Source: Deltaproteobacteria bacterium (GTDB lineage Bacteria; Desulfobacterota; Syntrophia; Syntrophales; UBA2210). From it: a stretch of 64,000 bases of DNA. Position numbers and translations under genes: made by a program. The stretch lies in assembly GCA_016935935.1 (NCBI GenBank), contig JAFGPZ010000038.1:1-64000 (forward strand), in the 5' to 3' direction. Every line of letters begins with the position of its first letter. Positions within the stretch are counted from its first letter, which is position 1. Shown here piece by piece: positions 13,810 to 55,379 of the stretch. The notes under the pieces were generated by a model, which worked only from the letters and a program-made list of their open reading frames with translations, searched no databases and was not told the DNA's origin.

Positions 13810-13826
13810 CAAGGAGGACGAAGACG

Positions 13827-24050: not shown

Positions 24051-24120
24051 CTCGCTGCGACAAGTTGCGTGGAATCTTTACCGGTAAGGGGATTTTTTAT
24101 TCACTTGCTGTTCAGTTCAA
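24051..24120. repeat. Intergenic palindromic repeat, degenerate copy
   Basis: GCTGCGACAAGTTGCGTGGAATC at about 24054-24076 is a decayed version of the hairpin at 2008 (the spelled core being ACAAGTTGCG). It is followed by a TTCACTTGCT segment and GTTCAGTTCAA, which correspond to parts of copy 1 near 2092-2138. It lies just before the YcaO gene. Confidence 0.5.
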
Positions 24121-24143
24121 TTACATGCGGGAATCAGTATATT

Positions 24144-25586
24144 ATGAATATTAGTTCAAATATTTCTCTGAAGTCGTCTCCCAAAACCTATACTCAGGAT
24201 CTAGACAAAGCTATTCCACCTGCTGAAACGGTAAAGAATGTCAAAGCCGTCCTGCAACGTATCGATCTTAAACTGGTAAATGATATCAGCCGAATCGATT
24301 ATCGGCGTCTCGATATACCCGTCTATGTATGTGAGGCCGGGAAGGACTGTAACACTCCCGGCAGAAAGACGATGGGTAAAGGTTCGTCACCGGAGCAGGC
24401 AGAGGCTAGCGCTTTAATGGAACTGATTGAAAGATTCAGCCACGCAAACTATCCCCATTCCCATAAGTTTCGGACAGGTCGATATTCTGACTTTGAGCAG
24501 TTCTCTATTCCCTTTGACAGGATATTTCATGTTCCCCACAGAAAATCTTTCGTTCCCGAGGAAAACAAGGAGAAATTTAAAGAGCTTTCTTTCTGCTGGC
24601 TTCCAGCGTACAGCCTGCTTCAAAAAAAAGACTTTATGATTCCTTATGAGTGGTTTGCAGATATTCAGGGTACCAATGGCCTCTCTGCCGGCAACACACT
24701 TGAAGAAGCCGTCCTTCAGGGACTTTCCGAAGTCATAGAAAGGCATGTATCTTCTGTAATAAACTGCGAACGGCGATCTGTTCCTACAATCGATCTCGCA
24801 AGCGTGAGAGATCCTGTTGCACGGGATCTCATCAGAAAATACATTTATAATGGGATAGAGTTATTTATTAAAGACTTCAGCATGAACATCGGTATTCCTA
24901 CAATAGCCGGAATCGCCTTTGATCCTTCAAGTTACCCGCAAAGCATGGTCGTTATGTGTGCAGCAACGGCGACTCATCCCGAAAAAGCACTTATAAGGGT
25001 TCTTACGGAAATACAGCAAATGGCCATCGATTACTTCAAACAGGATTACTATGCAGGAGGCATATTACCTAAATTCTACGATATTCGCGAAGCTGAATAT
25101 TTAATCAGTAACAATAAGACAGTTTCCATTGACGAACTCCCCGACGTGTCTGACAATGACATACTTATTGAATTGGAAAACTATACAAAGGCCTTGGATG
25201 CCATTGATTTTGAACCGATTGTGATAGATACCACTCACCCCGTTCTACGCATACCGAGCGTATTCGTTCTTGTTCCCGGCTCGGAACTGTATGACAATTC
25301 AAAATGCGATTTAAACTCGTATTATTATCTTGCACGGCGTATGCAGCATACAGGAAATTTCGAAAAGGCCATCGAAAATTATCGACTATCAATTTCAAGA
25401 CACCCGGCTTCATCGTGTCATGCCAATTTTGAAATGGGAGAATGCTTCAGACATTTAAAAGAATATCAGGAAGCATCTGACTGCTACAAGACGAGCCTGC
25501 GTTACAGTCCTGACCGTAATATGCAGTATCGAATTTTTGATTCTCTGACTAAATGTAATCAATTGCTTCAGCCTGCTTCACTTTGA
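24144..25586 (+). CDS. YcaO-domain protein with C-terminal TPR repeats
   Basis: 480 residues from the ATG at 24144; an upstream GTG at 24069 would add 25 residues across a repeat and is less likely. The YcaO ATP-binding signature is intact: GKGSSPEQAEASALMELIER and, later, GNTLEEAVLQGLSEVIERH, supplying the Mg-binding glutamates. The C-terminal strand PSVFVLVPG follows, and then about 100 residues with two TPR units (YYYLARRMQHTGNFEKAIEN, FRHLKEYQEASDCY). YcaO enzymes activate peptide amides with ATP to make azolines or thioamides; the YcaO-TPR subgroup, including E. coli YcaO, modifies proteins. There is no TfuA, precursor peptide or dehydrogenase gene nearby, so its target may be a host enzyme. 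Function unproven. Confidence 0.88.
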   Translation: MNISSNISLKSSPKTYTQDLDKAIPPAETVKNVKAVLQRIDLKLVNDISRIDYRRLDIPVYVCEAGKDCNTPGRKTMGKGSSPEQAEASALMELIERFSHANYPHSHKFRTGRYSDFEQFSIPFDRIFHVPHRKSFVPEENKEKFKELSFCWLPAYSLLQKKDFMIPYEWFADIQGTNGLSAGNTLEEAVLQGLSEVIERHVSSVINCERRSVPTIDLASVRDPVARDLIRKYIYNGIELFIKDFSMNIGIPTIAGIAFDPSSYPQSMVVMCAATATHPEKALIRVLTEIQQMAIDYFKQDYYAGGILPKFYDIREAEYLISNNKTVSIDELPDVSDNDILIELENYTKALDAIDFEPIVIDTTHPVLRIPSVFVLVPGSELYDNSKCDLNSYYYLARRMQHTGNFEKAIENYRLSISRHPASSCHANFEMGECFRHLKEYQEASDCYKTSLRYSPDRNMQYRIFDSLTKCNQLLQPASL

Positions 25587-28921: not shown

Positions 28922-30478
28922 ATGAATGCAAGTGATGGTTTGCGGTTAAGTGCTTGGAAGTTTCCAGACAAGACAGCTGCGGTTTATTTTGATGAACGAT
29001 TGACATACAAAGAAATGGACAATCGAGTGAATCGGCTGGCAAATGGAATGCTGAAGAAGGGAATCAAAAAGGGAGATAAGGTAGCCTATATGATGTTCAA
29101 TTGCCTGGAGGCGCTTGAGATTATCCAGGCATTGCTGAGGATTGGTGCTATTCTGGTTCCCATAAATTTCCGTCTTGATGCCGAGCGGACGGAATTTATT
29201 ATTAATCATTGTGACGCTACGTACATTTTCGTGGGCGGCAATCTGCTTGATACGATAGAGCCCATGATGCCCAACCTTAAAAACATAGCCAAGGAAAATT
29301 ATATCGTTGTAGGCGAAGGTGGAGATGGATATACCAGATACGAGGATATGATTTCCGATGTGGACATCAATCCCGAAGCGGATATACGACCTGAGGATAC
29401 TGCCTATCTAGCCTATACTTCGGGAACAACGGGATTGCCCAAAGGCGTTATTACGTCTTCAAAGGCTCTTATGTATAATATGCAGAATGCCATGATGCGC
29501 GGTTACGGCAGAAAAGGAGTCACGCCGGAAGACAGGGCTCTTCTTGTCCTTATGCCCCTGGTACACTCCAATTCAATCTGGAGTACGTCGATTACGTTAT
29601 GGTATGGCGGAACAAACGTAATATACAAATCGAAGGGTTTCGATGCGGAAGAAGTCCTGATGCTGATGGACAAAGAGAAGGTCAGTACCTCTTCACTGGT
29701 GCCCTTCATGCTGGCTAAGATACTCGATCTGCCTGAGGAAGTCCGTGATAAGTACGATGTGAGCAGCGTTACTTCGCTGGGAAGCGGATCGGCGATGTTG
29801 TATCCTACGGTTATCGAAAAAATGCTGAATTATTTCCAGGGTGTCAGGTTGAGCAACAGTTACGGCTCATCCGAAACAGGGCCTGCTACTACACTGAGGC
29901 ATCATGAGTTGAGTACTAATCCGACCAGCATAGGTAAGGTTATCCCCGGGGTCGAGGTAAAGGTTACCGATGATGATTTTAATGAATTACCTCCCGGAGA
30001 GGTAGGACATATCTGGATTAAGAGCGACGTAGCTTTTGACGGATACTATAAGGATCCCGAGAGAACGGCAAAATCCAAAAAGGGTGAATGGGCGTGTGCC
30101 GGAGATCTGGGGTATTATGATGAAGAGGGGTATTTCTATCTTGCGGACAGAAGTGATGATATGATCATAAGCGCCGGCGAGCATATAGCGCCTCCTGAAG
30201 TGGAGAACATTCTTCTTGAAAATCCCAAGATTGATGAAGTTGCCGTTATCGGTATTCCCGATGAACTGTACGGGCAGATCGTGGGTGCGATTATCAAGCT
30301 TAGAGAAGGTCAGGAAATGACTGTTGACGAAGTTAAGGAACACTGCCGCGGCACCGGAATGGCCGGGTTTAAGCTTCCCCGAAGGGTTGAATTTGTCGAT
30401 GACTTCCCCAAGACCCTGACAGGAAAGATTCTGAAGAGGGAGCTGCGCGAGAAGTATAAGAAGGAATCCGGGCTATAA
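28922..30478 (+). CDS. AMP-forming acyl-CoA ligase
   Basis: 518 residues of the ANL superfamily. The P-loop-like A3 motif AYTSGTTGLPKG is near residue 164, the YGSSETGPATT motif near 310, the GEWACAGDLGYYDEEGY hinge region near 400 and the catalytic Lys in the C-terminal TLTGKILKREL. It activates a carboxylic acid to its CoA ester with ATP giving AMP and PPi. It is the first gene of the operon leading into the B12-dependent mutase, so it most likely makes the mutase substrate or a precursor. GAGGGGG precedes the ATG. Its last 68 bases are duplicated 110 bases downstream. Substrate not predictable from sequence. Confidence 0.92.
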   Translation: MNASDGLRLSAWKFPDKTAAVYFDERLTYKEMDNRVNRLANGMLKKGIKKGDKVAYMMFNCLEALEIIQALLRIGAILVPINFRLDAERTEFIINHCDATYIFVGGNLLDTIEPMMPNLKNIAKENYIVVGEGGDGYTRYEDMISDVDINPEADIRPEDTAYLAYTSGTTGLPKGVITSSKALMYNMQNAMMRGYGRKGVTPEDRALLVLMPLVHSNSIWSTSITLWYGGTNVIYKSKGFDAEEVLMLMDKEKVSTSSLVPFMLAKILDLPEEVRDKYDVSSVTSLGSGSAMLYPTVIEKMLNYFQGVRLSNSYGSSETGPATTLRHHELSTNPTSIGKVIPGVEVKVTDDDFNELPPGEVGHIWIKSDVAFDGYYKDPERTAKSKKGEWACAGDLGYYDEEGYFYLADRSDDMIISAGEHIAPPEVENILLENPKIDEVAVIGIPDELYGQIVGAIIKLREGQEMTVDEVKEHCRGTGMAGFKLPRRVEFVDDFPKTLTGKILKRELREKYKKESGL

Positions 30479-30588
30479 GCAATTTTAACATAGTTAGGAA
30501 GAAATAAGAGATCAGATCCGAGACCCTGACAGGAAAAATGCAGAAGCAGAGGCTGCGCGATACTTATGAAAAAGAATCGGGGCTATAA
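30411..30588 (+). repeat. Diverged direct repeat of the ligase gene 3' end (30411-30478 and 30521-30588)
   Basis: The last 68 bases of the ligase gene (30411-30478, from the A10 catalytic Lys motif to the stop) recur at 30521-30588 with about 54 of 68 bases identical and no length change. The second copy still reads in frame to a stop (TLTGKMQKQRLRDTYEKESGL). Differences are mostly conservative at protein level, so the copy looks like the remaining tail of a second, related ligase gene whose body was deleted by recombination. Confidence 0.75.
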
Positions 30589-30720
30589 CTGATGAGTCTG
30601 TGCGATGGAGAGATAGGGCAGTGTTGAAGAATCGGGTGGCTTCATGCTTCTGGGTTTCGGGGAAGTGATGATGATTTTGTTATACAGACCAGAAAATTAT
30701 GGAAAGGAGAGGATATTTTT

Positions 30721-32424
30721 ATGTCTGAGAAAGTAGAGAAGAGTTTATTTGGTAACGAGGCTATCAATCTGATAGAAAAGGGATATCAGGATTGGTTTAA
30801 CAACAGTTTACGGGAAGCGGACAGAGAATCGGAGGGGAACTTTTTTACGCATTCAGGAATTCCGATTAAATTACTCTATACTCCTGTCGATGTTAAAGAC
30901 TTTGACTACGGTGAGGATTTGGGATTTTCCGGAGAGGCTCCCTATGTGCGCGGCGTATACCCGAACATGTACCGTGGGCGATTATTCACGGTTCGTCAGC
31001 TGGCGGGTCTGGGATCACCGGAGGACTGTAACAAGAGGATCAAATATCTGCTTGATCACGGGGCGACAGGTATAAGCATATTATTCGACCTGCCTACGAT
31101 TCGCGGGTACAATTCAGATGATCCCGAGGCGGAAGGAAACGTCGGTGCCTGTGGCGCGGCAGTTGATTCCATCTGGGACATTGACGCATTTTTCAAGGAT
31201 ATTGATTTGGGAGAGGTAAGCACATCGATCGTGACACATCTTCCCAGTACAAGCATCGTAATCCCGGGCATGTATTTTGCCGTAGCACAGCAGAGGGGAA
31301 CACCGATAGAGAATGTGGCGGGCACCTCCCAGAACGACTTTATCATGGAAACCTGCGTGGGTAGTGCTCCTGAAATTCTCCCCCCGGCAGCGTCATTCAG
31401 GCTCCAGTGTGACGTAGTGGAATGGATCTGCAAGAATGCACCTCGCTTTAATCCTATCAGCTATAACGGTTACAACCTCAGAGAGGCGGGTACGGATGCA
31501 GTTACAGAGGTGGGTATTGCAATATCAAACGCTATAGCGACAGCAGAAGAGCTGATCGGCAGAGGAATGAGCATAGACGATTTTGCACCACGGATGTCCT
31601 TCTTCTGGGATCTGCACAATGATTTCTTTGAAGAGATTGCGAAGTGTCGTGCAAGTCGTAAGGTATGGTATAAACTCATGAAGGAACGCTTTGGTGCAAA
31701 GAACAAAAAAACGTTGCTCATGCGTTACCATGTTCAAACTGCAGGTGTAACACTCCCGGCGACCGAACCCTACAATAATATAGCACGTTCAGCGATTCAG
31801 GGTCTGGCAGCGGTTTTAGGTGGATGCCAGTCGTTGCACATAGACTCTTATGACGAGGCATACTCGGCACCTACAGAAGAAGCGGCCCTCGTATCCCTGC
31901 GTTCGCAGCAGATTATTCAGGCTGAAACTGGTATTGTCAACACAGTAGATCCCCTTGCAGGATCATACTATGTTGAGCACCTTACAGACGAGATGGCCAA
32001 ACGGATCGAGGCCTACATTAAGAAGATCGAAGGTATGGGCGGTCTGGTTGCAGCCGTAGAGAGTGGCTGGCTGCATCGTGAAATCAGTTCATACAACATG
32101 AAATACCAGAGGGCGATTGAGACAGGCGAATATAAGGTAGTAGGTGTGAATTACCAGAAGGCCGCAGAAGGTGCGGCTACCGATATCGAAGTATTTAAAT
32201 ATCCCGAGACCTACTCAAGGCAGAAAGCGAAACTGGAAAAACTGTATAAAGAACGTGATGATAAGAAAGTCAAGGAATGCATGGACATCCTGCGCGAGAA
32301 GTGTCACAGTGACGAGAATCTCTATCCCTACACAATAGAAGCGGTGAAGAATCTCGTGACTTTAGGGGAGATCGAGGAACTCTTCCGCGAGGAATTCGGG
32401 CTCTGGTCATTCCCGCTAATCTAA
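30721..32424 (+). CDS. Adenosylcobalamin-dependent acyl-CoA mutase, large (catalytic) subunit
   Basis: 567 residues: the substrate-binding TIM barrel of the methylmalonyl-CoA mutase family without the B12 domain, as in two-subunit isobutyryl-CoA and 2-hydroxyisobutyryl-CoA mutases. Recognisable are PYVRGVYPNMYRGR, ILFDLPTIRGYNSDDP, AGTSQND and ISYNGYNLREAG. The selector position after RQ (Tyr89 in methylmalonyl-, Phe80 in isobutyryl-, Ile90 in 2-hydroxyisobutyryl-CoA mutase) is Leu94. The Arg207 position of methylmalonyl-CoA mutase is about Gly214, arguing against a dicarboxylic substrate. The Asp117 position of the hydroxyisobutyryl enzyme is Leu121. The active-site His244 is Asn252, while Gln197 is kept as Gln204. 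A carbon-skeleton rearrangement of a branched acyl-CoA is likely, but the substrate is open. GAAAGGAGAGG precedes the ATG. Confidence 0.9.
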   Translation: MSEKVEKSLFGNEAINLIEKGYQDWFNNSLREADRESEGNFFTHSGIPIKLLYTPVDVKDFDYGEDLGFSGEAPYVRGVYPNMYRGRLFTVRQLAGLGSPEDCNKRIKYLLDHGATGISILFDLPTIRGYNSDDPEAEGNVGACGAAVDSIWDIDAFFKDIDLGEVSTSIVTHLPSTSIVIPGMYFAVAQQRGTPIENVAGTSQNDFIMETCVGSAPEILPPAASFRLQCDVVEWICKNAPRFNPISYNGYNLREAGTDAVTEVGIAISNAIATAEELIGRGMSIDDFAPRMSFFWDLHNDFFEEIAKCRASRKVWYKLMKERFGAKNKKTLLMRYHVQTAGVTLPATEPYNNIARSAIQGLAAVLGGCQSLHIDSYDEAYSAPTEEAALVSLRSQQIIQAETGIVNTVDPLAGSYYVEHLTDEMAKRIEAYIKKIEGMGGLVAAVESGWLHREISSYNMKYQRAIETGEYKVVGVNYQKAAEGAATDIEVFKYPETYSRQKAKLEKLYKERDDKKVKECMDILREKCHSDENLYPYTIEAVKNLVTLGEIEELFREEFGLWSFPLI

Positions 32425-32468
32425 GAAATAACATAATTATACTATCAGACAGGAGGTAAAGAAGGATT

Positions 32469-32873
32469 ATGGAACGTAAAGTAAGGGTGGTTATGGCCAA
32501 GTTAGGACTTGATATACACTGGCGTGGGGTCTACCTCATCTCACAATTTTTGAAGGATGCTGGGATGGAAGTAGTTTATGTAGGAAACAAATTTCCGGAG
32601 CAGATCGTTGAATCAGCGATAGAAGAAGACGCAGATGTCGTTGGATTAAGCTCGCTGAGCGGCAATCACATGGTACTTGGTCCAAAGGTAGTAAAACTGC
32701 TTAAAGAGAAGAAGATGGACAACGTAAAGGTATTCATGGGTGGTGTTATGGCGCCTGCCGATGCAGTGGAACTGGAAGAGAAACACGGTGTACACAAGGT
32801 ATACCTGCCGGATACTCCCATGGAGACTATCATTAACGGCATATATGACAGTGTTGGTGTAAAGCGCCAGTAG
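32469..32873 (+). CDS. Acyl-CoA mutase, small B12-binding subunit
   Basis: 134 residues, a single cobalamin-binding domain. The base-off signature DxHxxG is intact (AKLGLDIHWRG near residue 15), along with GLSSLSGNHM and GGVMAPAD, which hold the nucleotide tail of B12. The His of DIHWRG should replace dimethylbenzimidazole as lower cobalt ligand. It forms the functional mutase with the large subunit 44 bases upstream. CAGGAGG precedes the ATG. The bulky DIHWRG in place of the more usual DGHDRG is a further sign that this mutase belongs to a diverged subtype. Confidence 0.93.
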   Translation: MERKVRVVMAKLGLDIHWRGVYLISQFLKDAGMEVVYVGNKFPEQIVESAIEEDADVVGLSSLSGNHMVLGPKVVKLLKEKKMDNVKVFMGGVMAPADAVELEEKHGVHKVYLPDTPMETIINGIYDSVGVKRQ

Positions 32874-32897
32874 AAAAAGATACAAACGAGGCGATAC

Positions 32898-33881
32898 ATG
32901 CAGGAAGTAGAGAGGCTGGTTGAAAAGTCGCTACAGGGTGACAAACTTTCGACAGCTAGGCTGATATCATTTGTGGAGCGTGGGGATAAGCGGACGCCAT
33001 ATATACTGGAGAAGATGGATCCCTACGCTGGAAATGCCTACTACATCGGGATAACGGGGCCGCCCGGGGCCGGGAAGAGTACCTTAATCGACCGTCTCGT
33101 GAAGACCTTTTGCGAGAATAAATATTCGGTTGGGGTTATTGCTGTAGATCCGACGAGTCCATTCAGCGGTGGAGCGTTGCTGGGCGACCGTGTCCGGATG
33201 AATATAGAAAGTGGGAAGTATGACTATTTTTTCCGGAGCATGAGCGCAGGGAAGGTCATGGGGGGGCTTTCGAGAACGACGAAAGAGACCTCGAGAATTC
33301 TTGATGCAAGCGGCCGCCAGATAATCATAATTGAGACGGTGGGCGTCGGACAGTCGGAACTGGACATAGCGAAAGCTACAGACACGGTACTGGTGGTCCT
33401 GACGCCTGACGCGGGTGACGCCATACAAACCATGAAGGCGGGCCTGATAGAGATAGCGGACGTTTTTGCAGTGAACAAATCAGACCGGCCTGGGGCGGAA
33501 AATATATCACTGTCGCTGGAGGGAATGCTTGATCGGAAAGAGAAGATTCACGATATGCAGGGATGGCGCCCTCCAATATATCTGACAGCGTCATCTCTGA
33601 ACAAAGGCGTAGAAGCTCTGTACGAAGGCCTGTGGAAGCACTACCACTATCTGCAAAAGGAAGGGAAGCTTGAAGAAAGGCGAAGGAAGCAGCTCAGGGA
33701 GGAGTTGCGTTCCCAGATAGAAATGGAGTTTGTAAGAGTAATCTGGGAAGATATTTTAGATGCCGAGAACATTGACAACTTGGCAGAGGCAATGTGGAAG
33801 AGCAAAACAAGTCCGCGGACAGTGGCTCGTAAGATAGTAGAGAAAAGAGTAGCGGACAAAATATTGGCAAAAGAAATATAG
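32898..33881 (+). CDS. MeaB/ArgK-type P-loop GTPase, mutase chaperone
   Basis: 327 residues. Walker A is GPPGAGKST near residue 57, the family-specific VDPTSPFSGGALLGDRVRM follows, then the Mg-binding ETVGVGQSE and the guanine motif NKSD. MeaB-family proteins gate delivery of adenosylcobalamin to acyl-CoA mutases and eject damaged cofactor. It follows the small mutase subunit by 24 bases, the standard neighbourhood, so it should serve this mutase. A stand-alone GTPase, rather than an IcmF-type fusion, fits the two-subunit mutase. Confidence 0.93.
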   Translation: MQEVERLVEKSLQGDKLSTARLISFVERGDKRTPYILEKMDPYAGNAYYIGITGPPGAGKSTLIDRLVKTFCENKYSVGVIAVDPTSPFSGGALLGDRVRMNIESGKYDYFFRSMSAGKVMGGLSRTTKETSRILDASGRQIIIIETVGVGQSELDIAKATDTVLVVLTPDAGDAIQTMKAGLIEIADVFAVNKSDRPGAENISLSLEGMLDRKEKIHDMQGWRPPIYLTASSLNKGVEALYEGLWKHYHYLQKEGKLEERRRKQLREELRSQIEMEFVRVIWEDILDAENIDNLAEAMWKSKTSPRTVARKIVEKRVADKILAKEI

Positions 33882-34289
33882 AAGGACGCAGATCGGAATA
33901 AGAAGAATAAAAGTAACAGAGAGAGTATAGGGAAACATTTGTCTGTGTCTTTGTTTGATGGGGTTAAAGGGGGTGGTTCGTAGGCGCCTTCATAAGTAAT
34001 GAATAAAAAAAAGAATATAACATCCGAGGAAATGTGGTTAGGAATAGCTATCTGTGTATGTGTATATGGTAAAATTTGATGACGTTGAGAATAACCAACA
34101 TTCGGCGGTGCAAGAGTTACTCGTTGTTAGGGTGAGGAGCATTTCTGAAATGCTGATGTGTATTGATAGTAAATGAGAGAAGGGTTGTTTGTATCAGTAA
34201 TTTTTCAAAAAATGCTTTGTGGTAAGGTAAGAGAAACATATTAAAAAATGTTAATTAAGAAAAAACTGTAACAAAGAGTGGAGGTAAGG
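33882..34289. other. Gene-free gap inside the operon
   Basis: About 400 bases between the GTPase and lyase genes, G-rich at the start and AT-rich at the end. I see no terminator hairpin, strong promoter or small gene; cotranscription across it is possible but not shown. Confidence 0.45.
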
Positions 34290-35663
34290 ATGAAAGAAGA
34301 GAAGTTAAAAGTAGATAAAATCGAAAATCTTGGACAGCTAGCACGTTTGCTGGATGTAAAACTCAAAGATTTACTGCCTGAGAAAGTTGATATGTTGGAG
34401 CTTTTTCTGAGGGATGGTCTTCAGCACTCACCAAAATACATACCTGTTCAGGCGAAGTTATGGTATGCCGATCAGATTGTGAAGGCAGGATACAAGAAGA
34501 TTGAAGTAACCAACTTCAGCCACCCGGTTCTTATGCCGCAGAGTCGCGATGCGGAAGAGATGATGTACCAGGTATACAATCTTCAGTCTGTGAGAGAAAA
34601 TAAGCCTGAACTAAAGGTTTATGGAATGACAGTTCCCGCTTTTGAAAGAATAGCGGAGTGTTGTCAGAAGGGTTTCGGACCAGACAGTGTTGCCTTTACA
34701 ATATCTGCGGAAGATCTTCATGGGAGGAGAAATTCAGGGAGAACTAGGAGTGAATACTGGAAGGAAATTCCCGAGTTTGTTCGAATTGGAAAGGAAAACG
34801 GCTTCAAGGTCGATTGTGCTTTGGCGAGTGTGTATGGATCGGGCATGGCTGGTCTTGTACCAATTGAAAATACAATTGAGATTATGGACCGTTGCCTCGA
34901 TATGGGTATCAAGGATTTTACTCCCTGTGATTCCACCGGCGAATGTAACCCGTTGAGGGCATTTTTATATATGGCGGCGCTCGTCGACCGATACAGCAAG
35001 TATGATGATGAGATCACTTACCGGCTCGCGCATTTTCATGAAGCCAGAGGCATGGCAGTGGCCAATACTATAGCTGCAGTGCTTGGTGGGGCGAGAATCG
35101 TGGAAACCGCCATTGGTGAAGGCGGAGGGCAGCCGGCATTTTTCGTTGACGGTGTTCCTGGAACCGGAAGCGGACCGCTTTATACAAATTCATGGGAAGT
35201 AGGAAACTGTTCCACAGAAGATGTTCTTGTTGCGTTAGATGAGATAGGAATAGATACCGGTGTGGATATTGACCATGTCCTTGCGATAGGAAGGTGCTTT
35301 GAGTGGACGATGGGAACCAGTCTCAAACCGTGGTGTACGAAATCGGGAAGACCGATCAAGCAACCGGTTGAGTGGAACAATTCCGAGCTCAATCTGGCAT
35401 ATATACCGCCCTATCCGCCTGAGGTATCATGGGCAGATCCATCCAGATACAAACCCGCTTCGGCTGACTTTATAGCGAAACAGCTTGAAGGTCGCGAATA
35501 TAAAGGTTCTTGGGAAGAGAAAGTGAAACAAGTTGATGAAATGATGAAAGGGAAGACGGCCGTGCTGTCGCATGGCGGTAATGTTCCGGGTAAGGAAGGA
35601 TTTGTTTTCGAGAACAATCCTGCCAAGAAGAGATGGTTCCTCCTGCCAAAGAGGCAGAAGTAA
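34290..35663 (+). CDS. HMG-CoA lyase-like DRE-TIM metallolyase
   Basis: 457 residues; the start at 34290 follows GGAGGTAAGG, so an upstream in-frame GTG at 34278 is rejected. The DRE-TIM signature is LFLRDGLQ near residue 43, the metal-binding HFHEARG stands for HxHDTxG of HMG-CoA lyase, and DSTGECNP for the DTIG loop. The mobile-loop Cys of HMG-CoA lyase (GGCPYA) is replaced: the loop reads GEGGGQPAFFVDGVPG. The protein is about 150 residues longer than HMG-CoA lyase (about 300), with an N-terminal lead and a basic C-terminal extension. It should cleave or form a C-C bond on a 3-hydroxyacyl-CoA or 2-oxoacid-type substrate, and sits between the mutase genes and the dehydrogenase. Confidence 0.85.
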   Translation: MKEEKLKVDKIENLGQLARLLDVKLKDLLPEKVDMLELFLRDGLQHSPKYIPVQAKLWYADQIVKAGYKKIEVTNFSHPVLMPQSRDAEEMMYQVYNLQSVRENKPELKVYGMTVPAFERIAECCQKGFGPDSVAFTISAEDLHGRRNSGRTRSEYWKEIPEFVRIGKENGFKVDCALASVYGSGMAGLVPIENTIEIMDRCLDMGIKDFTPCDSTGECNPLRAFLYMAALVDRYSKYDDEITYRLAHFHEARGMAVANTIAAVLGGARIVETAIGEGGGQPAFFVDGVPGTGSGPLYTNSWEVGNCSTEDVLVALDEIGIDTGVDIDHVLAIGRCFEWTMGTSLKPWCTKSGRPIKQPVEWNNSELNLAYIPPYPPEVSWADPSRYKPASADFIAKQLEGREYKGSWEEKVKQVDEMMKGKTAVLSHGGNVPGKEGFVFENNPAKKRWFLLPKRQK

Positions 35664-35678
35664 TAATCGGGCAAGTGA

Positions 35679-35740
35679 AGCTTTCAGGGATACCGTGAAC
35701 TCAGTGAACGGTACGGATTTATCGTAGTACCCTGAAAGCT
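35679..35740 (+). other. Long imperfect hairpin between lyase and dehydrogenase genes
   Basis: AGCTTTCAGGG at 35679-35689 pairs with CCCTGAAAGCT at 35730-35740 (11 bp), and an inner ACCGT/ACGGT pair lies between. There is no T-run except GAAAAAT after it. It could stabilise the lyase mRNA end or attenuate the SDR gene. Confidence 0.55.
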
Positions 35741-35777
35741 GAAAAATGGGGACAAAGCAAGAAAGGAGGAGGGAGAC

Positions 35778-36572
35778 ATGTTGGATATTAAGGGATCTGT
35801 TGCCGTTATTACCGGAGGAGGAAGCGGAATCGGCGAGAGTTTGGCGAAATTCTGGGTACAGAACGGTGGAAAAGTAGTTCTTGGCGATGTAGTTCCAGAA
35901 GGTCTTGCTCGTGTGGAAGCAGACATAAAGAAGATGGGTGGAGAGGTAGCCACCATAGTGGGAGATATTACTAAAGATGAGGATTGTGCGGCCCTGGCGA
36001 AGCTGGCGATAGACAAATTCGGTGCCATAAATCTGGTGGTTCCCTGTGCGGGAATCATAAAGGATGGAATGATGGTGTCGCCGGACAGAGAAACGGGGAA
36101 AGTGACGAAGAAGATGAGCACGGACCAGTTTCAGGCGGTAATCAACATTAACCTGACGGGTGTGTTTCTGACGGTAAGAGAATGTGCCGAGCAGATGATC
36201 AACAACAACTGCAAGGGGCTCATCTGCCTGATTTCATCGACGGGATCACTGGGAACGGCAGGTCAGATAAACTACTCATCGACGAAGGCGGCCATGTCTG
36301 TTATGCCTAAGGTCATCACGGCAGAGTTTTTCAGGCGAGGTCTTGCCGATAAGATTCGTTGTGTTGCTATTGCTCCCGGGTATGTTGGAACGGCAATGGT
36401 CAAGGGTATGAATCAGAAAGCCCTTGACATGATTCTAGAAAATGTACCCATCGGTCGACTGGTGGAACCTGAAGAGGTGGCTTCCTTAGTCGCTGAGCTG
36501 TACAGAAATGAAGCGATAAATGCAGATGTATACTTCATTCACGGCGGACTTAGACTGGGCTCTAAGGGTTAA
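35778..36572 (+). CDS. Short-chain dehydrogenase/reductase
   Basis: 264 residues of the classical SDR type. The cofactor loop is VITGGGSGIGES near residue 9. An Asp at the end of the second strand (VLGDVVPEG) favours NAD over NADP. Catalytic residues are Ser in LISSTGS and YSSTK. AAAGGAGG precedes the ATG. Given its place after ligase, mutase and lyase, it likely oxidises a 3-hydroxyacyl-CoA (for example 3-hydroxybutyryl-CoA to acetoacetyl-CoA) or the alcohol produced by the rearrangement; this is inference. The operon ends here, with a long palindrome 43 bases downstream. Confidence 0.9.
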   Translation: MLDIKGSVAVITGGGSGIGESLAKFWVQNGGKVVLGDVVPEGLARVEADIKKMGGEVATIVGDITKDEDCAALAKLAIDKFGAINLVVPCAGIIKDGMMVSPDRETGKVTKKMSTDQFQAVININLTGVFLTVRECAEQMINNNCKGLICLISSTGSLGTAGQINYSSTKAAMSVMPKVITAEFFRRGLADKIRCVAIAPGYVGTAMVKGMNQKALDMILENVPIGRLVEPEEVASLVAELYRNEAINADVYFIHGGLRLGSKG

Positions 36573-36940: not shown

Positions 36941-37831
36941 GTGGTAAGAGTAGAAAAAGTTGATTCAAGAATAGATGCTATTACTATAGACGAAAAAAGA
37001 ACCGTCTGGTTGATAAAAGGTGAAAGAAATGTACTGATCGATGCCGGATACCCTTCTGATATTGATGATCTATGTTTAGGGCTGGAAAGTGTGTCTATGA
37101 AACCTCAAGATATTCATTATCTTGTGTTGACCCATATTCATATTGATCATGCCGGGGGTGCTGGAAGCATAGCGCTGAAAAACCCTGCACTGAAAATATT
37201 TGTACATGAAAAAGGGGCGAGTGCTATCGTAAATCCGGAAAAATTGATATTCAGCGTAAGAAGGGTCTACGGGAAACAGTATGAGGAAATGGGGGAAATC
37301 TTGCCCTTATCATGCAGTGATATGGTGGTTCCTGTAAAAACAGGAGACAGGATAGATCTGGGAGATTCGGTGCTGGAGGTCTATTATACTCCGGGACATG
37401 CAAAACATCATGTCGTCTATTTTGACAGAATATCTGAATCGATTTTTTCAGGAGACGCATTGGGGAGTAAATACAAAAATCTGCCCAACTTTGTGCTGTC
37501 TCCACCTTCTGATTATGACAGGGAATCAGCAAAGAAATCTATCGATTTGATAGAAAGTCTCAAACCGAAGAGGATAAATTTTGCCCACTGCGGGTCATAT
37601 TATATAGGAAATAAAAAAAATATTTATAATGAGCTGAAAAAAAAGCATGATGTCTGGACACAGTGTGTGATAGGGATTATTAAGGAAATTGGTAACTTAA
37701 ACGAAGATGAAATCTTCAAAAGATTCCTGGAGAAAGTGCCTGGTCTTAAAAAGTATCCCGATCAATATCTTTCATTTCATATGAGCGTCAGAGGGATCCT
37801 GTTATATTTAAAGAGAAAGGGCATCATGTAG
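36941..37831 (+). CDS. Metallo-beta-lactamase-fold hydrolase
   Basis: 296 residues starting at GTG. The metal-binding motif THIHIDHAGG is near residue 64, further ligands are in YTPGHAKHH (His) and SGDALG (Asp), and the late His is in NFAHCGSY. The last about 80 residues form a helical domain (KSIDLIESL onwards), the layout of the MBL proteins related to thioesterase/lactonase-like enzymes. The nearest functional guess is a hydrolase of a CoA thioester or lactone. GGAAGAG lies very close to the GTG. The second MBL gene starts 12 bases after it. Confidence 0.82.
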   Translation: MVRVEKVDSRIDAITIDEKRTVWLIKGERNVLIDAGYPSDIDDLCLGLESVSMKPQDIHYLVLTHIHIDHAGGAGSIALKNPALKIFVHEKGASAIVNPEKLIFSVRRVYGKQYEEMGEILPLSCSDMVVPVKTGDRIDLGDSVLEVYYTPGHAKHHVVYFDRISESIFSGDALGSKYKNLPNFVLSPPSDYDRESAKKSIDLIESLKPKRINFAHCGSYYIGNKKNIYNELKKKHDVWTQCVIGIIKEIGNLNEDEIFKRFLEKVPGLKKYPDQYLSFHMSVRGILLYLKRKGIM

Positions 37832-37843
37832 GGGGATAATAAT

Positions 37844-38503
37844 ATGTTTTTTCATCAGATGGAAGTCGGATTTCATGCGGTTTACGCCTATCTTATCGGT
37901 GATTCGGAAACGGGTGATGCAGTTATAGTGGATCCGGCCGACGATGTGGATGGAATCATAATTCTGGCAGAGGACAATAATCTGAATATAAAATATATAC
38001 TCAATACTCACGGGCATGTGGATCATATTATGGGAAATGCCGAGATGAAGGAGAAAACAGGGGCTCAGATTATAATTCATAAAGATGAGGCAGACTATCT
38101 TGAAAAGATAGGAGATATATGGCTTGATATGTTTAATGCCCGAAGATCTCCACCGGCTGATAAGGTTATTGAAGAGGGAGATATACTCCACATAGGAAAG
38201 TTTAAATGGCGTGTAATTCACACTCCCGGTCATACACCAGGAGGCATTTGTCTTTATAATGAAGCAGAGGGAATCTGTTTGACGGGAGATACATTGTTCG
38301 TTGGATCTGTAGGGAGAACTGACGGACCCAAGGCATCCTGGCCACAACTATCCAATTCGATAAAGACAAAGCTGCTGGTGTTGCCTGATGATACCCAGGT
38401 GTTTCCGGGGCACAACTATGGTTTCTATCCCAGTTCAACCATTGGTTACGAGCGTGAACATAATCCATTTGTAAACGGGTCTTGTGATATTGATATGTTT
38501 TGA
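37844..38503 (+). CDS. Metallo-beta-lactamase-fold hydrolase (glyoxalase II-like)
   Basis: 219 residues, close to the 200-220 of short glyoxalase-II-like proteins. Ligands: THGHVDHIMG near residue 57, HTPGHTPGG near 128, LTGDTLF near 147 and FPGHNYG near 187. Such proteins hydrolyse S-acyl thiols. It is cotranscribed with the MBL gene 12 bases upstream (GGGGGAT before ATG) and precedes the large TPR gene. Both MBL genes are placed so that they could act as CoA-recycling thioesterases for the acyl-CoA pathway, but I have no direct evidence for a substrate. Confidence 0.87.
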   Translation: MFFHQMEVGFHAVYAYLIGDSETGDAVIVDPADDVDGIIILAEDNNLNIKYILNTHGHVDHIMGNAEMKEKTGAQIIIHKDEADYLEKIGDIWLDMFNARRSPPADKVIEEGDILHIGKFKWRVIHTPGHTPGGICLYNEAEGICLTGDTLFVGSVGRTDGPKASWPQLSNSIKTKLLVLPDDTQVFPGHNYGFYPSSTIGYEREHNPFVNGSCDIDMF

Positions 38504-38628: not shown

Positions 38629-41514
38629 ATGAACATGCAAAAGAATGAGTTGAGAGAAGCTAACTTACAGGCACTATCCGATTTTTATCGGTCCGGAACT
38701 GAAAAAATATATTTGATTATCGGAAATGATGACCATGCAATACATGATTTCTATGAAGAGTGTATGGCAAGGGCTTCAGAAAACAATAATCTCATATTAC
38801 GTTTTGAGATAAGACACAAGGAACACTCGAAGCACTTTCTTTATCGATGGTTGTATGAAATGGTGTCGGGGAAATCCTTTTTTGATGTTGGGTCATGGTC
38901 GGATATTACTGCAGAAGACCCGAATCTGAAAAAGAAACTGGAGCTGTTATTGGAAAAAGATATTCGTCCGCTGGAAATCAGGTTTCTGGAAGGCGTAAGA
39001 TTCATTGCTGATAAATTAAAACAGAGACAGAAATTACTCCTTTCAATATTACCCGGAACAGACCTTAACGACAGGGTTTTCGTGGATTTCTTCCGATCTA
39101 TAATTAATGTATTACCTGTTAGCGTAAAGATGATTATATGGCAGGCTGAAAAGGATGTCGTAGCGCAGCAGGAAGATTTTTCACCATCAAACCGTATTAT
39201 CCTGGAAGATGGTATAGATGAAAAAAGAATAACGATCGGAAAGAAATATGAAACGTATTACCGGACTGATGAGGGAATCGAGGGTCGTATAATTCGGGCG
39301 ATGTCACACTTTGTATATCCGGTGGATCTTGAATTTCTATCCGATGTTCTTGATGAGGATAAGAAACTTTTACAAAAGGCAGTGCAGTCGGACGAATTAT
39401 CGGATTTGATAGAAGTTGATTCCGGAAATTGTTTCAGGCTGACCTATCCTCGCACTGTCCAGAGTGAAGATACGAGTCAATACAGCTTTGATGATCATGA
39501 TAAGCGTGCAATCGAATATATAGAGAGAAGATTTTTGAGTGAATCGGGTACATATTCCGATCTGCTGTACCATTCATATATTATGTCTCACATCAGTGAT
39601 CCTGACTTTGTTGCCGAACATATTATGAAAACGTGCCGCACTAAGATGGATATGGGAGGTGCCGATGTATGCGAACTGGAGTTCGAATATTCCCTGTCTC
39701 TTATGGGTGAAAATAATGAACATCAGAAGGCAGCGTTGCTTCTCAAATTGGGAGAGTTGCGAGAATCAAAGATGCGTAATGCAGAAGCAATAGAAGTTAT
39801 TGATAAGTCTATTGAAATATTCAGAAAAACGGGGAATAAGCAGGACCTTCAGCGTGCGCTTGAATTAAAGGGTCAGGCTGCCTTTTCTATGAGGGAGATT
39901 GATACAGCCCGAGTGTCACTTGAAGAGTCATTAAATATTGCGCGTGATATGGGCAAGGATGTTTTGTCTGCCGATATATTAAGTCAGTTGGGATATCTGT
40001 TTTATTCTATGAAAAAGCTTGATGAGGCCGAACGAGCTTACAGTGGATCACTAGATATTTATAGAAACATTGGAAAAACGAACGAAGAGGAAGGCAGAAA
40101 AGGAGAGGCGGCACAGTTGGCAAATCTGGGCCACACAAACTATGCAAAAGGCGAATTCATAAAAGCGGACGAGTTTCATCGCAAGGCCCTTGAAATATAT
40201 GAATCTCTGGGTGACCAGGATGCCCAGACGAAACAGTGGGGTTACCTTGGGCATACATATTTTGCGAAAGGGGATTTTGATAAAGCTGTTGAAGCCTATG
40301 AGAAATCAGCGGATATCGAGGAAAAATACGGTGATCCTCAGAAAGCAATACAGCGATATGCCAGTATCGGTCATGCTTTATATGCACAAAGAAAACCAGA
40401 ACTTGCAATAGAATCTTTTCAGAAGGCGTTAGACAGATACCGGGAATCGGGTGACATCGAAGGACAGGCAGCTCAGCTTTCGAACCTCGGACTCGTCAAG
40501 GGGGACCGTGGGGAGCACGATCGAGCGATTGAATATTTTGAGCAGGCGGCAGAATTGTTTAAGAGCATTGGTGATCCTCTGAACGAGACCTCACAGATTG
40601 TTCGAATGGGTCATATTAGATTGGCACAGAAAAAATATGAAGATGCTGAAAATTTATACAAAAAGGCACTGGATCAATATGAAGTCGTTCAGTACCCGAT
40701 TGGTAAGGCCGAAACTCACCTTAACCTGGGGCAGTTTTATTACGAAAGAAATCGCTGGGAAGAAGCGACAGACTGTTTCAAAAATGCGAGCACGGTTTAC
40801 TCCGAAATGAGGAACAGTGAAAGAGAGGCATCATGCCTCGTATCGCAGGGTTATGCGGAAGCGGCTTCAGGAGACATGGATTCTGCAATTAATACGATCG
40901 ATCGGGCCATAGAGATATACGCTAATATTCATGACCAGTCTGGTATTGCCAATGCTAAATCCAAGAAGGGTCTCATATACTTTGAGAAGAGAAATTTTGA
41001 AGATGCCGAGAGGCTTTACCGGGAAGCCCTGGAAGAATATCAGAAAATGGAAGACAGGGGAGGCGAGTCAAGTCAACTGGCAAATCTGGGAACGTTATAT
41101 TATGAAACCGAACAGTTGGCAAAGGCACGAAAGGAATACGAGAAGGCGTTGCTCATTCTGCGAGGCATGAGCAATCCGCTTGGACTTGCAGGTGTTCTTA
41201 CTAGCATGAGCTATGTATATGAACAGGAGAAAAAATATGGCGAGGCAAGTTCCAGTTTGAAAGAGGCCCGTAAGATTTACGAAAACCTTAATATGGAAGC
41301 AGAGGTGAATATGCTGGATACCCGCATTTCATTTCTGGAGAAGGAGGCCGAAAAATCCCTGGAAAATATCAGGGCTGAACTATTCTCGGGACTATCCGAT
41401 AAGAGCAAGTCCACATCTCGCAAGAAACAGTCTAAGAAAAATGCAAAGATCGGGCGTAATGATCCATGTCCGTGCGGAAGCGGTAAAAAATATAAAAATT
41501 GCTGCGGTGCTTAA
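38629..41514 (+). CDS. Large TPR protein with N-terminal degenerate ATPase-like domain and C-terminal SEC-C zinc motif
   Basis: 961 residues. Residues 1 to about 270 look like a STAND/AAA-type ATPase domain that has lost its Walker A: where a GxxGxGKT loop would be, the sequence reads IIGNDDHAIHDF, and the Walker-B-like strand is KLLLSILPGTD. From about 360 to 920 at least a dozen TPR units follow, several with the NLG/LGxxxYxxG pattern (AQLANLGHTNYAKGEF, GYLGHTYFAKGDF). After a Lys/Ser-rich linker the protein ends with a SEC-C motif, NDPCPCGSGKKYKNCC, a zinc site also found at the SecA C-terminus. No signal peptide. A protein-interaction or scaffold role is likely; GGGGTGAT precedes the ATG. 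Confidence 0.8.
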   Translation: MNMQKNELREANLQALSDFYRSGTEKIYLIIGNDDHAIHDFYEECMARASENNNLILRFEIRHKEHSKHFLYRWLYEMVSGKSFFDVGSWSDITAEDPNLKKKLELLLEKDIRPLEIRFLEGVRFIADKLKQRQKLLLSILPGTDLNDRVFVDFFRSIINVLPVSVKMIIWQAEKDVVAQQEDFSPSNRIILEDGIDEKRITIGKKYETYYRTDEGIEGRIIRAMSHFVYPVDLEFLSDVLDEDKKLLQKAVQSDELSDLIEVDSGNCFRLTYPRTVQSEDTSQYSFDDHDKRAIEYIERRFLSESGTYSDLLYHSYIMSHISDPDFVAEHIMKTCRTKMDMGGADVCELEFEYSLSLMGENNEHQKAALLLKLGELRESKMRNAEAIEVIDKSIEIFRKTGNKQDLQRALELKGQAAFSMREIDTARVSLEESLNIARDMGKDVLSADILSQLGYLFYSMKKLDEAERAYSGSLDIYRNIGKTNEEEGRKGEAAQLANLGHTNYAKGEFIKADEFHRKALEIYESLGDQDAQTKQWGYLGHTYFAKGDFDKAVEAYEKSADIEEKYGDPQKAIQRYASIGHALYAQRKPELAIESFQKALDRYRESGDIEGQAAQLSNLGLVKGDRGEHDRAIEYFEQAAELFKSIGDPLNETSQIVRMGHIRLAQKKYEDAENLYKKALDQYEVVQYPIGKAETHLNLGQFYYERNRWEEATDCFKNASTVYSEMRNSEREASCLVSQGYAEAASGDMDSAINTIDRAIEIYANIHDQSGIANAKSKKGLIYFEKRNFEDAERLYREALEEYQKMEDRGGESSQLANLGTLYYETEQLAKARKEYEKALLILRGMSNPLGLAGVLTSMSYVYEQEKKYGEASSSLKEARKIYENLNMEAEVNMLDTRISFLEKEAEKSLENIRAELFSGLSDKSKSTSRKKQSKKNAKIGRNDPCPCGSGKKYKNCCGA

Positions 41515-42054: not shown

Positions 42055-43278
42055 TTAAAAATCTTCGGAGCCTATGGCAAGGTCAAGAGGATCGGTAGCA
42101 AGTGGTATCCCCGGTCCTCCCTGTACGACAACCTTACGAAGACCCGCTGCCTCGACTGCTTTTTGTGCCGCCTCAAGATCATCACTGCTGACAAAGGGTA
42201 AATTACGCAGGCGAAAAGCAGGCTGATATTCGACGAGCGTGACGGGAATATCTTTGCTTATATCTGCCAGGGTTAGTGCCATCTCTTTCAACTCTTCCAG
42301 TGTATGAATGGCAGGAAAGTAGGGAAAGCTCACCGCCATGAAGAGTTTTTCCTTATATCTCTCGTTTATATAGCGAACCGCTTCCCACGATGTTTCCAGA
42401 TATTGTCGTGCTTTTTCTTCCGACTTCACACCGCACAGCTCCATAAAAGTCTTCAGATGTAAGGCTTTAATATCGGGCGATATATGAGTAATTCCGGATT
42501 CTATCAGATCATCGATGTAATCGGTAGTTAAAAGGGATGCGTTTGTGTCGAGCTGAATACGAATATTCGGGACCGTTTTTCGAAGCTCGTGAACCGTCTC
42601 CAGAAGCCATCTGCGGTTCAGAGTTGGCTCTCCACCGGAAATGCCAACCCAACTATCCTCTTTCTGGTCAAGATGAAGTTTCGAAACAGCTTCACGAGGG
42701 TTCATGGCCCGTCCGTTCGATGCAAATGTCATGTCCCAGTTGTGGCAGATGCCGCAGGAGTAATTACAGCCGTGAGTAAAAACGGAAGGATCGTAATGGG
42801 GGTGAGGACGCATAAGGGTGATAATTCGGACTGCTTCAGAGTTTTCTTTAATGGTGTCATCGTCGGTTACGATATCCATACCCTCTTGCAGGGGTGTAAC
42901 GCAACTTCGGGTTAGCACACCGTTGATCAGAACGGCGCAGTCCCAGCACCCGCCTGTTTCGCACAGTGCTTCATAATTTCTTTCTGTCAGGTTGTTTTTG
43001 CTGATTGCCCCCTCTTTTCCCAATGCTCTTATCAGATTCAAAACGGAGACAGGACCGCTCGCCGTAAAAGCCTGCCCGTCAACTGTGCACCGAATAGACT
43101 CGCTGGTTTCGCCTATCATGAGCGATATGGCTTCCTGGGGACAACCTTTTATACAGGCACCGCATCCGATACAGATGCCTGTTTCCTTCTGTGGGCAATT
43201 AATTTCATGATTACAGAAACCGCAGTGCAGGCAACTTTCATTCCTGACCGCAAAAAAGCGATCTATATCTATTCCCAT
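42055..43278 (-). CDS. Radical SAM protein fused to 2[4Fe-4S] ferredoxin and [2Fe-2S] domains
   Basis: 407 residues from ATG 43278; a TTG at 43308 would add ten residues. Domains in order: two ferredoxin clusters (CLHCGFC...CP and CIGCGACIKGCP, residues about 10-45); a plant-type or succinate-dehydrogenase-like 2Fe-2S segment (CETGGCWDC then RSC, about 105-130); then a radical SAM core with CNYSCGIC (CxxxCxxC, near 170) and GISGGEPTLN for SAM binding. The core is nearest the PFL-activase/AmrS-like group. Glycyl radical activases often carry inserted ferredoxins, but the additional 2Fe-2S domain is not something I know from that group. No glycyl radical enzyme is in the window. It overlaps the 133-residue gene by 10 bases, downstream of the thiamine-diphosphate enzyme. 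Confidence 0.85.
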   Translation of the reverse strand: MGIDIDRFFAVRNESCLHCGFCNHEINCPQKETGICIGCGACIKGCPQEAISLMIGETSESIRCTVDGQAFTASGPVSVLNLIRALGKEGAISKNNLTERNYEALCETGGCWDCAVLINGVLTRSCVTPLQEGMDIVTDDDTIKENSEAVRIITLMRPHPHYDPSVFTHGCNYSCGICHNWDMTFASNGRAMNPREAVSKLHLDQKEDSWVGISGGEPTLNRRWLLETVHELRKTVPNIRIQLDTNASLLTTDYIDDLIESGITHISPDIKALHLKTFMELCGVKSEEKARQYLETSWEAVRYINERYKEKLFMAVSFPYFPAIHTLEELKEMALTLADISKDIPVTLVEYQPAFRLRNLPFVSSDDLEAAQKAVEAAGLRKVVVQGGPGIPLATDPLDLAIGSEDF

Positions 43279-43670
43279 ATTACTTTTACACCGTCTGCAG
43301 TTTCGCAAAATTGAAATTCATATTCATTCCAGAACAAGTCTTCTGCCCACGGTGTTACGTCCTCCATCTTATCCACACCCAGCCTTGACAGGAACTCTTC
43401 CTTGGTTGGCAGGTTTGTTATAAGATCATCAATCCTGGGAAGAGGAATGAAATCATGAGGATGCTCGCAATCATGACTTGCAAAAACCACATCTCCTTTA
43501 TTAACTTGAGTTGCAAAGCCGAGCGCCACGAAGATTTCCTGAGGAAAATCGGCACGCTTGAAGAGCTGCTTTACATATCCTATAACTACGCTTCGTGTCA
43601 TAGTAGTTTCTTCTATCCTGTCATGAAAGGGACGTCCTGCCTGAAAAAGCATGTTTAAACGGTTATCCAT
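43269..43670 (-). CDS. Hypothetical protein of the TPP/radical-SAM operon (133 residues)
   Basis: Start at 43670 after GAGGAGG; longer frames lack a ribosome site. The protein (start MDNRLNMLFQAGRPFHD) is acidic, soluble and aromatic-rich, with a Cys-His pair (HDCEHPHDF) near residue 68 and one more Cys (FQFCETADG) near the end. No family is recognised. It lies between the thiamine-diphosphate enzyme (110 bases upstream, with a terminator-like hairpin between) and the radical SAM gene (overlapping). This suggests a small partner subunit or carrier for one of them. Confidence 0.7.
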   Translation of the reverse strand: MDNRLNMLFQAGRPFHDRIEETTMTRSVVIGYVKQLFKRADFPQEIFVALGFATQVNKGDVVFASHDCEHPHDFIPLPRIDDLITNLPTKEEFLSRLGVDKMEDVTPWAEDLFWNEYEFQFCETADGVKVIWE

Positions 43671-55196: not shown

Positions 55197-55379
55197 TTAA
55201 TCTCCTTCCAGGGACAGGACATTATCGTTTAGGCAGAGCACTTGATTATCTAAGCACAATATCCTATCGTGGTTTAGTTTATTGTTAATCCATGTTTCTA
55301 TCTTTTCAAAATTGGTTTGAACCAATCCGTTCCATCCTGTTGTGCCGTAATTGACATCGTCCAGAGATATATTGTCCAT
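55197..55379 (-). CDS. Small tail-module protein (60 residues)
   Basis: Start at 55379: AAGGAGG precedes an ATG that overlaps the stop of the hub C-terminal gene (TGATG). The product begins MDNISLDDVNYGTTGWNGL and has an amphipathic helix (NFEKIETWINNKLN), followed by a repeat of the phrase CL-N-V-L (LCLDNQVLCLNDNVLSL). Small proteins with this NYGTTGWN start occur in tail tip regions of siphoviruses (from memory). Structural role presumed. Confidence 0.6.
   Translation of the reverse strand: MDNISLDDVNYGTTGWNGLVQTNFEKIETWINNKLNHDRILCLDNQVLCLNDNVLSLEGD

Follow-up and report, generated by a model that had tools for sequence, protein, structure and literature searches.

This locus raises the question of which acyl-coenzyme A (CoA) ester is rearranged by a B12-dependent mutase with an unusual active site, and in which pathway. 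The window, by which we mean the whole 64,000-nucleotide stretch of contig JAFGPZ010000038.1 analyzed here (from a deltaproteobacterium of the order Syntrophales), carries six successive genes for a ligase, the two mutase subunits, a MeaB-type GTPase chaperone, a lyase-type protein, and a short-chain dehydrogenase/reductase (SDR). All six are open reading frames at the coordinates in Table 1, and their domains agree with the functions that an initial annotation had read from the letters alone. The locus is very probably an acetone or short-ketone degradation cluster of a sulfate reducer, of the type described for Desulfosarcina cetonica and Desulfococcus biacutus, with a mutase that is orthologous to the known enzyme but of another active-site subtype. 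We established the orthology, the gene set, the residues, and the clade membership by comparison with related loci, which are cited by our own numbers (L001 and upward). The pathway is already known, and the window mainly adds a member to it; the active site matters more, in that mutases with reported activity carry Asn at the position of His244 of methylmalonyl-CoA mutase (MCM), another His in the barrel, and no counterpart of Asp117 of canonical 2-hydroxyisobutyryl-CoA mutase (HCM).

Correspondence to the acetone cluster of Desulfosarcina cetonica

Searching one genome per species with patterns derived from the window protein yielded 24 large-subunit relatives, one of which (L007) belongs to D. 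cetonica JCM 12296. This locus holds counterparts of all six cluster genes, at 47 to 79% identity gene by gene, and of one metallo-beta-lactamase-fold protein; the D. cetonica thiamine-diphosphate (TDP) enzyme lies on the same contig as the mutase, and other mutase matches in that genome are weaker and on different contigs. On sequence comparison, the six window genes are orthologous to the acetone-induced cluster of D. cetonica, which bears out the likeness to ketone pathways of sulfate reducers that had been noticed at first. The order differs from that of D. cetonica: in the window the ligase gene precedes the mutase, the gene for the protein resembling 3-hydroxy-3-methylglutaryl-CoA lyase (HMGL-like) lies between MeaB and the SDR, and the genes for the TDP enzyme, a small protein, and a radical SAM protein stand on the opposite strand, starting about 5.5 kb past the SDR gene.

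Passages of the work of Frey et al. (PMC7888143) report that the TDP enzyme, mutase subunits, reductase, HMGL-like protein, and an acyl-CoA synthetase are more abundant in D. cetonica on acetone, the counterpart of the window ligase being an acetone-inducible “long-chain acyl-CoA synthetase.” The same passages describe acetone-inducible 2-hydroxyisobutyryl-CoA mutase activity in extract of acetone-grown D. cetonica, dehydrogenase activity likewise in its extracts, and confirmation of mutase and dehydrogenase of D. biacutus with heterologously produced enzymes; the D. cetonica study could not demonstrate the TDP step. For acetone-grown D. biacutus, excerpts of Gutierrez Acosta et al. (PMC4103992) give higher scores for HMGL-like, ligase, and thiolase proteins. 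As far as these two sources describe them, both clusters share with the window the TDP enzyme, two mutase subunits, MeaB, SDR, HMGL-like protein, and ligase, the likeness to D. biacutus being one of published description only. The published tags of the form Ga0122881_1052xx we read as contig 1052, gene xx, hence NZ_BBCC01000052, a reading of our own that the gene order fits.

By this analogy, the TDP enzyme would join acetone and a one-carbon acyl unit to give 2-hydroxyisobutyryl-CoA, as published work suggests. MeaB would keep the two-subunit B12 mutase working, and the mutase would convert this ester to 3-hydroxybutyryl-CoA, which the SDR would oxidize to acetoacetyl-CoA for cleavage by a thiolase to two acetyl-CoA. 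The ligase, HMGL-like protein, radical SAM protein, and small protein would be recurring accessories, possibly involved in the supply of the one-carbon unit.

The trees place the mutase close to that of D. cetonica. Near relatives were taken as the best 120 of 7,784 hits minus the window itself, leaving 119 homologues, all at least 74% identical. The first tree used 10 of them; the second left out all of them together with IcmF, L019, L024, L040, L056, L071, L072, and L073; two 46-row trees included 12 of 30 further loci (L104 to L133), one without and one with the haloarchaeal L036. Window and D. cetonica mutases fall in one 14-row clade (support 100/100) in the tree without the near homologues, and stand together in two other trees. 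Canonical HCM (the 4r3u type) is separate from the window clade in the first two trees and in the 46-row tree without L036; an approximately unbiased test of the two as one group gave p values of 0.0025 without L036 and of 0.034 and 0.0565 with it. An early value of 9e-6, obtained without the sister rows that carry Asn252 and without L036, was not used as evidence.

Origin of the CoA ester and the accessory proteins

Relatives of the window TDP enzyme in the Protein Data Bank (PDB) include 2-hydroxyacyl-CoA lyases and acetolactate synthases. Close TDP enzymes were sought in the 18 genomes behind the loci and in D. cetonica; L020 and L021, which have His-type mutases and only 32 to 33% matches, were set aside, leaving 17 genomes with a mutase of the window's type (acetone-type below). 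A close TDP enzyme is present in eight of the 17, in L004 as a piece of 315 residues. Among the other nine, three (L008, L016, and L017) have beside the mutase a ligase 50 to 55% identical to the HCM-operon ligases of the aerobic Methylibium and Xanthobacter, five (L001, L003, L006, L012, and L018) have a CoA-transferase pair upstream of it (domain-checked in L003, by similarity in the others), and L019 has neither. The L008 ligase, the one searched against the PDB, matched 2-hydroxyisobutyryl-CoA synthetase 6hdw best (E value 5e-155). One mutase type thus appears to be supplied by any of three activating systems (ketone-activating enzyme, acid ligase, or CoA-transferase), a pattern consistent with 2-hydroxyisobutyryl-CoA as its one substrate.

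The window has no match to a 2-hydroxyisobutyrate-type ligase or CoA-transferase at an E value of 1e-10. The window ligase was considered as a 2-hydroxyisobutyrate ligase and rejected, having no blastp match to such ligases at 1e-5. This bears on the foremost alternative, to which we give a slim chance, that the cluster acts on free 2-hydroxyisobutyrate or another acid through the ligase, with the TDP enzyme unrelated or cleaving. The ligase does lie directly before the mutase, three relatives have an acid-activating ligase beside the mutase and five a CoA-transferase, and an actinobacterial TDP lyase is reversible according to the abstract of PMC8760513; but besides the missing ligase match, the D. 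cetonica counterpart of the ligase is among the proteins more abundant on acetone in the portions of PMC7888143 cited above, and the TDP enzyme, small protein, and radical SAM protein are kept as a set in the window. The CoA ester thus most likely comes from a ketone through the TDP enzyme, and the logic first proposed for the operon, in which an acid is activated, is probably wrong.

The genes of this set occur together at 7 of 11 distinct TDP-enzyme places, D. cetonica included; three others have the radical SAM gene with no match to the small protein, and one has neither. A role in supplying or activating the one-carbon unit is possible for the small protein and the radical SAM protein. A similar acetone gene set is described in parts of PMC8084838 for Desulfotomaculum arcticum and Desulfotomaculum geothermicum, in which, as in the window, the TDP enzyme has neighboring genes for proteins resembling pyruvate formate-lyase (PFL) activase and HMGL; in D. 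arcticum a hypothetical protein and the PFL-activase-like protein stand beside the TDP enzyme. Two genomes in our set (G319 and G321) fit this type, with TDP enzyme (53%) and mutase (46 to 48%) on one contig and with His173 and Asn252. They differ from the window in a mutase identity of only about 47%, Arg at the 214 position, and the small-subunit motif CLGPETHNRG. In L105, L108, L109, and L110 this motif departs from KxxxDxHxxG in that Cys replaces the conserved Lys and Glu replaces Asp.

The HMGL-like protein was rejected as a true HMG-CoA lyase: the Cys of its GGCP motif is replaced by Gln, and its NCBIfam score is 124.9 against a cutoff of 246. It keeps the metal-binding HxH as HFH and has an insertion at the GGCP site. 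This Cys is catalytic in HMG-CoA lyase, and the cleavage first assigned to the protein is probably wrong. Relatives at 41 to 65% identity occur in L007, L015, L103, L136, and L137.

Several points weigh against an acetone cluster whose mutase works on 2-hydroxyisobutyryl-CoA. Conversion of this ester by the window mutase would follow by analogy with D. cetonica, and Asp117 and His of canonical HCM are both absent from it. The rows nearest to the window in the trees (L001, L003, L006, and L012) come from genomes with no close TDP enzyme, so that membership of the clade alone does not imply acetone use, although those genomes may be incomplete; the surveyed genomes are mostly metagenome bins, and some loci are short.

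Active site of the mutase

MCM numbering was anchored by PDB titles (Y89F in 5req and H244A in 1e1c), and the Tyr/Phe difference at position 89 is seen between the sequences of 1req and 5req. The alignments uphold the equivalence, first made by eye, of Leu94, Leu121, and Asn252 to MCM Tyr89, HCM Asp117, and MCM His244. At MCM Arg207 the initial annotation was right that Arg is missing, but the residue it named, Gly214, is given by HMMER only, MAFFT giving Ser215. The four selector positions read Tyr, Ala, Arg, and His in MCM, so that the window mutase is without Tyr89, Arg207, and His244. Leu94, Leu121, and Asn252 are identical in 119 of the 119 listed near homologues, and the D. cetonica mutase agrees with the window at both Leu positions, at Ser in the MAFFT column of Arg207, at Asn252, and at His173. 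Canonical HCM (Methylibium WP_011831864, 99.6% identical to 4r3u over 527 residues, and Xaut_5021) has Ile, Asp, Gln, and His where the window has Leu, Leu, Gly or Ser, and Asn, and Asn rather than His at position 173; its small-subunit motif is HDRG rather than HWRG. We take Ile90 and Asp117 to be the marker residues of canonical HCM. Across the 62 rows beyond the near homologues, position 252 is Asn in 26, His in 35, and Gln in 1, and in the 30 further loci (L104 being the L015 place again) Asn in 9 and His in 21. With no Asp117 for the hydroxyl, Asn for His244, and His173 at the end of strand 2, the window mutase is, on its aligned residues, a distinct active-site subtype.

The small subunit has changed as well. 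Its Lys and axial-His motif are intact, and the axial His is followed by Trp in all 20 small subunits from the window and L001 to L019, as it is in those of the eight other Asn-type loci. At the same place the 50 further matches outside the refetched acetone-type loci all have Asp (one stray L018 match set aside), as do the second small subunits of L055, L098, and L099. Four Desulfotomaculum-type small subunits, read by hand, have Asn there, and L106 and L112 gave no match.

A new substrate class, with a pivalyl-type or other tertiary acyl-CoA as substrate, was proposed at first and has a slightly smaller chance still than the use of a free acid. In its favor is Xaut_5043, which we take to be the pivalyl-CoA mutase: this enzyme shares Leu at the Tyr89 and Asp117 positions, so that Leu at the former is not unprecedented as had been thought, and with its paired row it shares one side of a branch with the Asn252 clade (99/93 in a 46-row tree, 97/95 in the first tree); the window mutase, moreover, offers no Asp117 for a hydroxyl. 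Xaut_5043, however, reads Leu, Leu, His, and His at the four positions, keeping His244 with Gln at the Tyr243 position and Pro at that of His173, where the window has Tyr251, Asn252, and His173. MeaB and ligase genes are its immediate neighbors. The 23 kb read there include no annotated TDP gene, and the two SDR genes, beside a gene for 2-hydroxypropyl-CoM lyase, are about 6 kb away, whereas the window has a TDP enzyme and an SDR nearby. Genes resembling 2-hydroxyisobutyryl-CoA ligases adjoin three relatives, and the large subunit clusters with, and is 79% identical in sequence and identical in key residues to, the enzyme of D. cetonica, whose extract has 2-hydroxyisobutyryl-CoA mutase activity in the cited passages of PMC7888143. 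Such clustering with a characterized subtype that has the same residues is what the initial annotation had named as refuting a new class. Of the substrates first suggested, the 2-hydroxyisobutyryl type is therefore kept and the pivalyl and other tertiary types dropped.

Canonical HCM and MCM retain a residue that the window mutase lacks. His244 of MCM-type mutases is regarded as essential, and its mutants, of which H244A is in the PDB, are strongly impaired. That the window mutase is inactive or poorly active through loss of this residue has a practically negligible probability, given that Asn252 is kept in all 119 near homologues and, at 44 to 64% identity, in 9 of 30 loci from another class of bacteria, that the small-subunit Lys and axial His are intact, and that passages of PMC7888143 report activity both for extract of D. 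cetonica and for the enzyme of D. biacutus.

The loss of His244 is accompanied by a gain elsewhere. We filtered for columns at least 95% fixed in acetone-type rows and at most 3% in His-type rows, with no prior choice of position, in a 67-row alignment (25 acetone-type, 8 other Asn-type, and 34 His-type rows; also used for the MAFFT registers) that leaves aside L019, L024, L039, L040, L056, L072, L073, Xaut_5043, and IcmF, among them the four exceptions given below, and 15 of the 21 His-type loci among the 30 further ones. Twenty-five columns pass, including His173, where His-type rows have Asn (MCM Asn168). In 145 rows, among which some proteins appear twice, His173 accompanies Asn252: these are the window, all 119 near homologues, 19 of 19 loci L001 to L019, and all 6 Desulfotomaculum-class rows (L105, L106, L108, L109, L110, and L112). 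The reverse pair, Asn173 and His252, is present in 32 of the other 36 rows of the first alignment, the exceptions being L024 (Thr/His), L039 and Xaut_5043 (both Pro/His), and L056 (Ala/Gln); the 6 His-type rows read in the second alignment all have it. Five MAFFT settings agree in aligning His173 with the HCM and MCM Asn, with a two-residue insertion directly after it.

The AlphaFold model of the large subunit (mean pLDDT 84.1), whose nearest structure is 4r3u, predicts strand 2 at residues 167 to 173. MCM Ser164 and Thr166 face the channel; if residues 169 and 171 do so too, strand alternation would make His173 channel-facing. The strand beside it presumably carries Asp117 in the canonical enzyme, and we infer that His173 may do some of the work of His244 or Asp117. 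It is the reciprocal His/Asn exchange and the location at strand ends that appear to single out positions 173 and 252. A tentative reading, which we place somewhat below an even chance, is that acetone-type mutases arrived independently at an active site for the same reaction, in which His244 was given up for Asn252, His173 on strand 2 binds the thioester or the 2-hydroxyl, and the B12 subunit changed too (HDRG to HWRG).

Against this reading, a HMMER pairwise alignment gaps His173 and pairs Leu174 with the HCM Asn. The state at position 252 changes once on the tree, so that many rows are not independent events, and eight sister rows carry Asn252 without His173, which it therefore does not require. 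His173 is 1 of the 25 filtered columns, so that much of the difference may be plain divergence, and this result lowered our estimate a little, from just under even to its present place. No earlier remark on the exchange of His244 for Asn252 and Asn168 for His173 was met in the literature searched, though Frey 2018 could hold one. If the reading is true, His244 is not indispensable in this enzyme family, and a recognition rule based on Ile90 and Asp117 would miss anaerobic 2-hydroxyisobutyryl-CoA mutases. Leu94, His173, and Asn252 also provide a signature by which to recognize ketone and 2-hydroxyisobutyrate degraders annotated as having MCM.

The eight sister rows (L050 to L055, L107, and L111) have Cys or Ser at position 173, Ile, Thr, or Val at the Arg207 position, and a DxHWRG small subunit; no SDR match was found in the six neighborhoods read (L094 to L099). 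One of these, L098, also encodes a second mutase, whose small subunit has the motif DGHDRG, and nearby a thiolase/DUF35 pair. On a haloarchaeal plasmid, L036 (2734-9196) has genes for a TPP enzyme, a ligase, an Asp117-type mutase, and MeaB in a row, possibly an archaeal 2-hydroxyisobutyrate or ketone module.

Features of the window and neighboring genes

The intergenic gaps across the six-gene cluster are 242, 44, 24, 396, and 114 bases, in gene order, sizes that make a single transcript plausible. Promoter- and terminator-like sites in the window are fewer than in shuffled sequence and hence uninformative on operon limits, and Rfam at gathering scores gave no match in the whole window, hence no known riboswitch.

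Table 1. Coordinates of genes and mutase codons in the window, with the basis of each assignment
Feature	Position	Strand	Basis
AMP-forming acyl-CoA ligase, 518 aa	28922-30478	+	domain match; 47% to D. cetonica L007 18890-20434
B12-dependent acyl-CoA mutase large subunit, 567 aa, proposed 2-hydroxyisobutyryl-CoA mutase	30721-32424	+	PF01642; 79% to D. cetonica; trees
Leu94 codon (MCM Tyr89; Ile in canonical HCM)	31000-31002	+	alignment
Leu121 codon (HCM Asp117; MCM Ala116)	31081-31083	+	alignment
His173 codon (MCM Asn168; end of predicted beta-strand 2)	31237-31239	+	alignment, AlphaFold model
Asn252 codon (MCM His244)	31474-31476	+	alignment
B12-binding small subunit, 134 aa, motif KLGLDIHWRG	32469-32873	+	PF02310; 76% to D. 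cetonica
MeaB-type GTPase chaperone	32898-33881	+	PF03308; TIGR00750 301 bits (cutoff 241); 59% to D. cetonica
HMGL-like protein, Gln at GGCP-motif Cys	34278-35663	+	PF00682; 65% to D. cetonica
SDR, proposed 3-hydroxybutyryl-CoA dehydrogenase	35778-36572	+	domain match; 77% to D. cetonica
Metallo-beta-lactamase-fold protein 1	36941-37831	+	domain match; 51-55% to relatives in L009, L010, L013
Metallo-beta-lactamase-fold protein 2	37844-38503	+	domain match; 62% to D. cetonica
Radical SAM/Fe-S protein adjoining TDP enzyme	42055-43308	-	domain match
Small protein between TDP enzyme and radical SAM protein	43269-43667	-	no Pfam match; relatives in 7 places
TDP enzyme, 683 aa, proposed acetone-activating 2-hydroxyacyl-CoA synthase/lyase	43781-45832	-	TPP_enzyme N/M/C; 76% to D. 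cetonica C52:28328-30379
2-Hydroxyglutaryl-CoA dehydratase/benzoyl-CoA reductase-type subunit (HGD-D)	18934-20289	+	domain match
Second HGD-D subunit	20310-21470	+	domain match
Thiolase, candidate for final acetoacetyl-CoA cleavage	49396-50757	+	PF00108, PF02803

The candidate thiolase is one of three thiolase-domain proteins found by domain search in the window, and the two HGD-D-type subunits belong to a class reported as acetone-inducible in parts of PMC7888143 and PMC8084838. A DUF35/ACP-synthase-like gene and thiolase pair lies at 12352-15038, with relatives (52% and 67%) that adjoin the L098 mutase. A YcaO-domain protein with TPR repeats (24069-25586) stands beside acyl-CoA genes. Another TPR protein, of 961 amino acids (38629-41514), has relatives at 45 to 48% near the TDP enzyme in L010, L013, L101, and L103 and a Cys-rich C-terminal tail that, as we take it, resembles the SEC-C motif. 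Near the window end, a phage-tail-like protein (Rcc01698_C, Phage-tail_3) is encoded on the reverse strand at 55379-56782.

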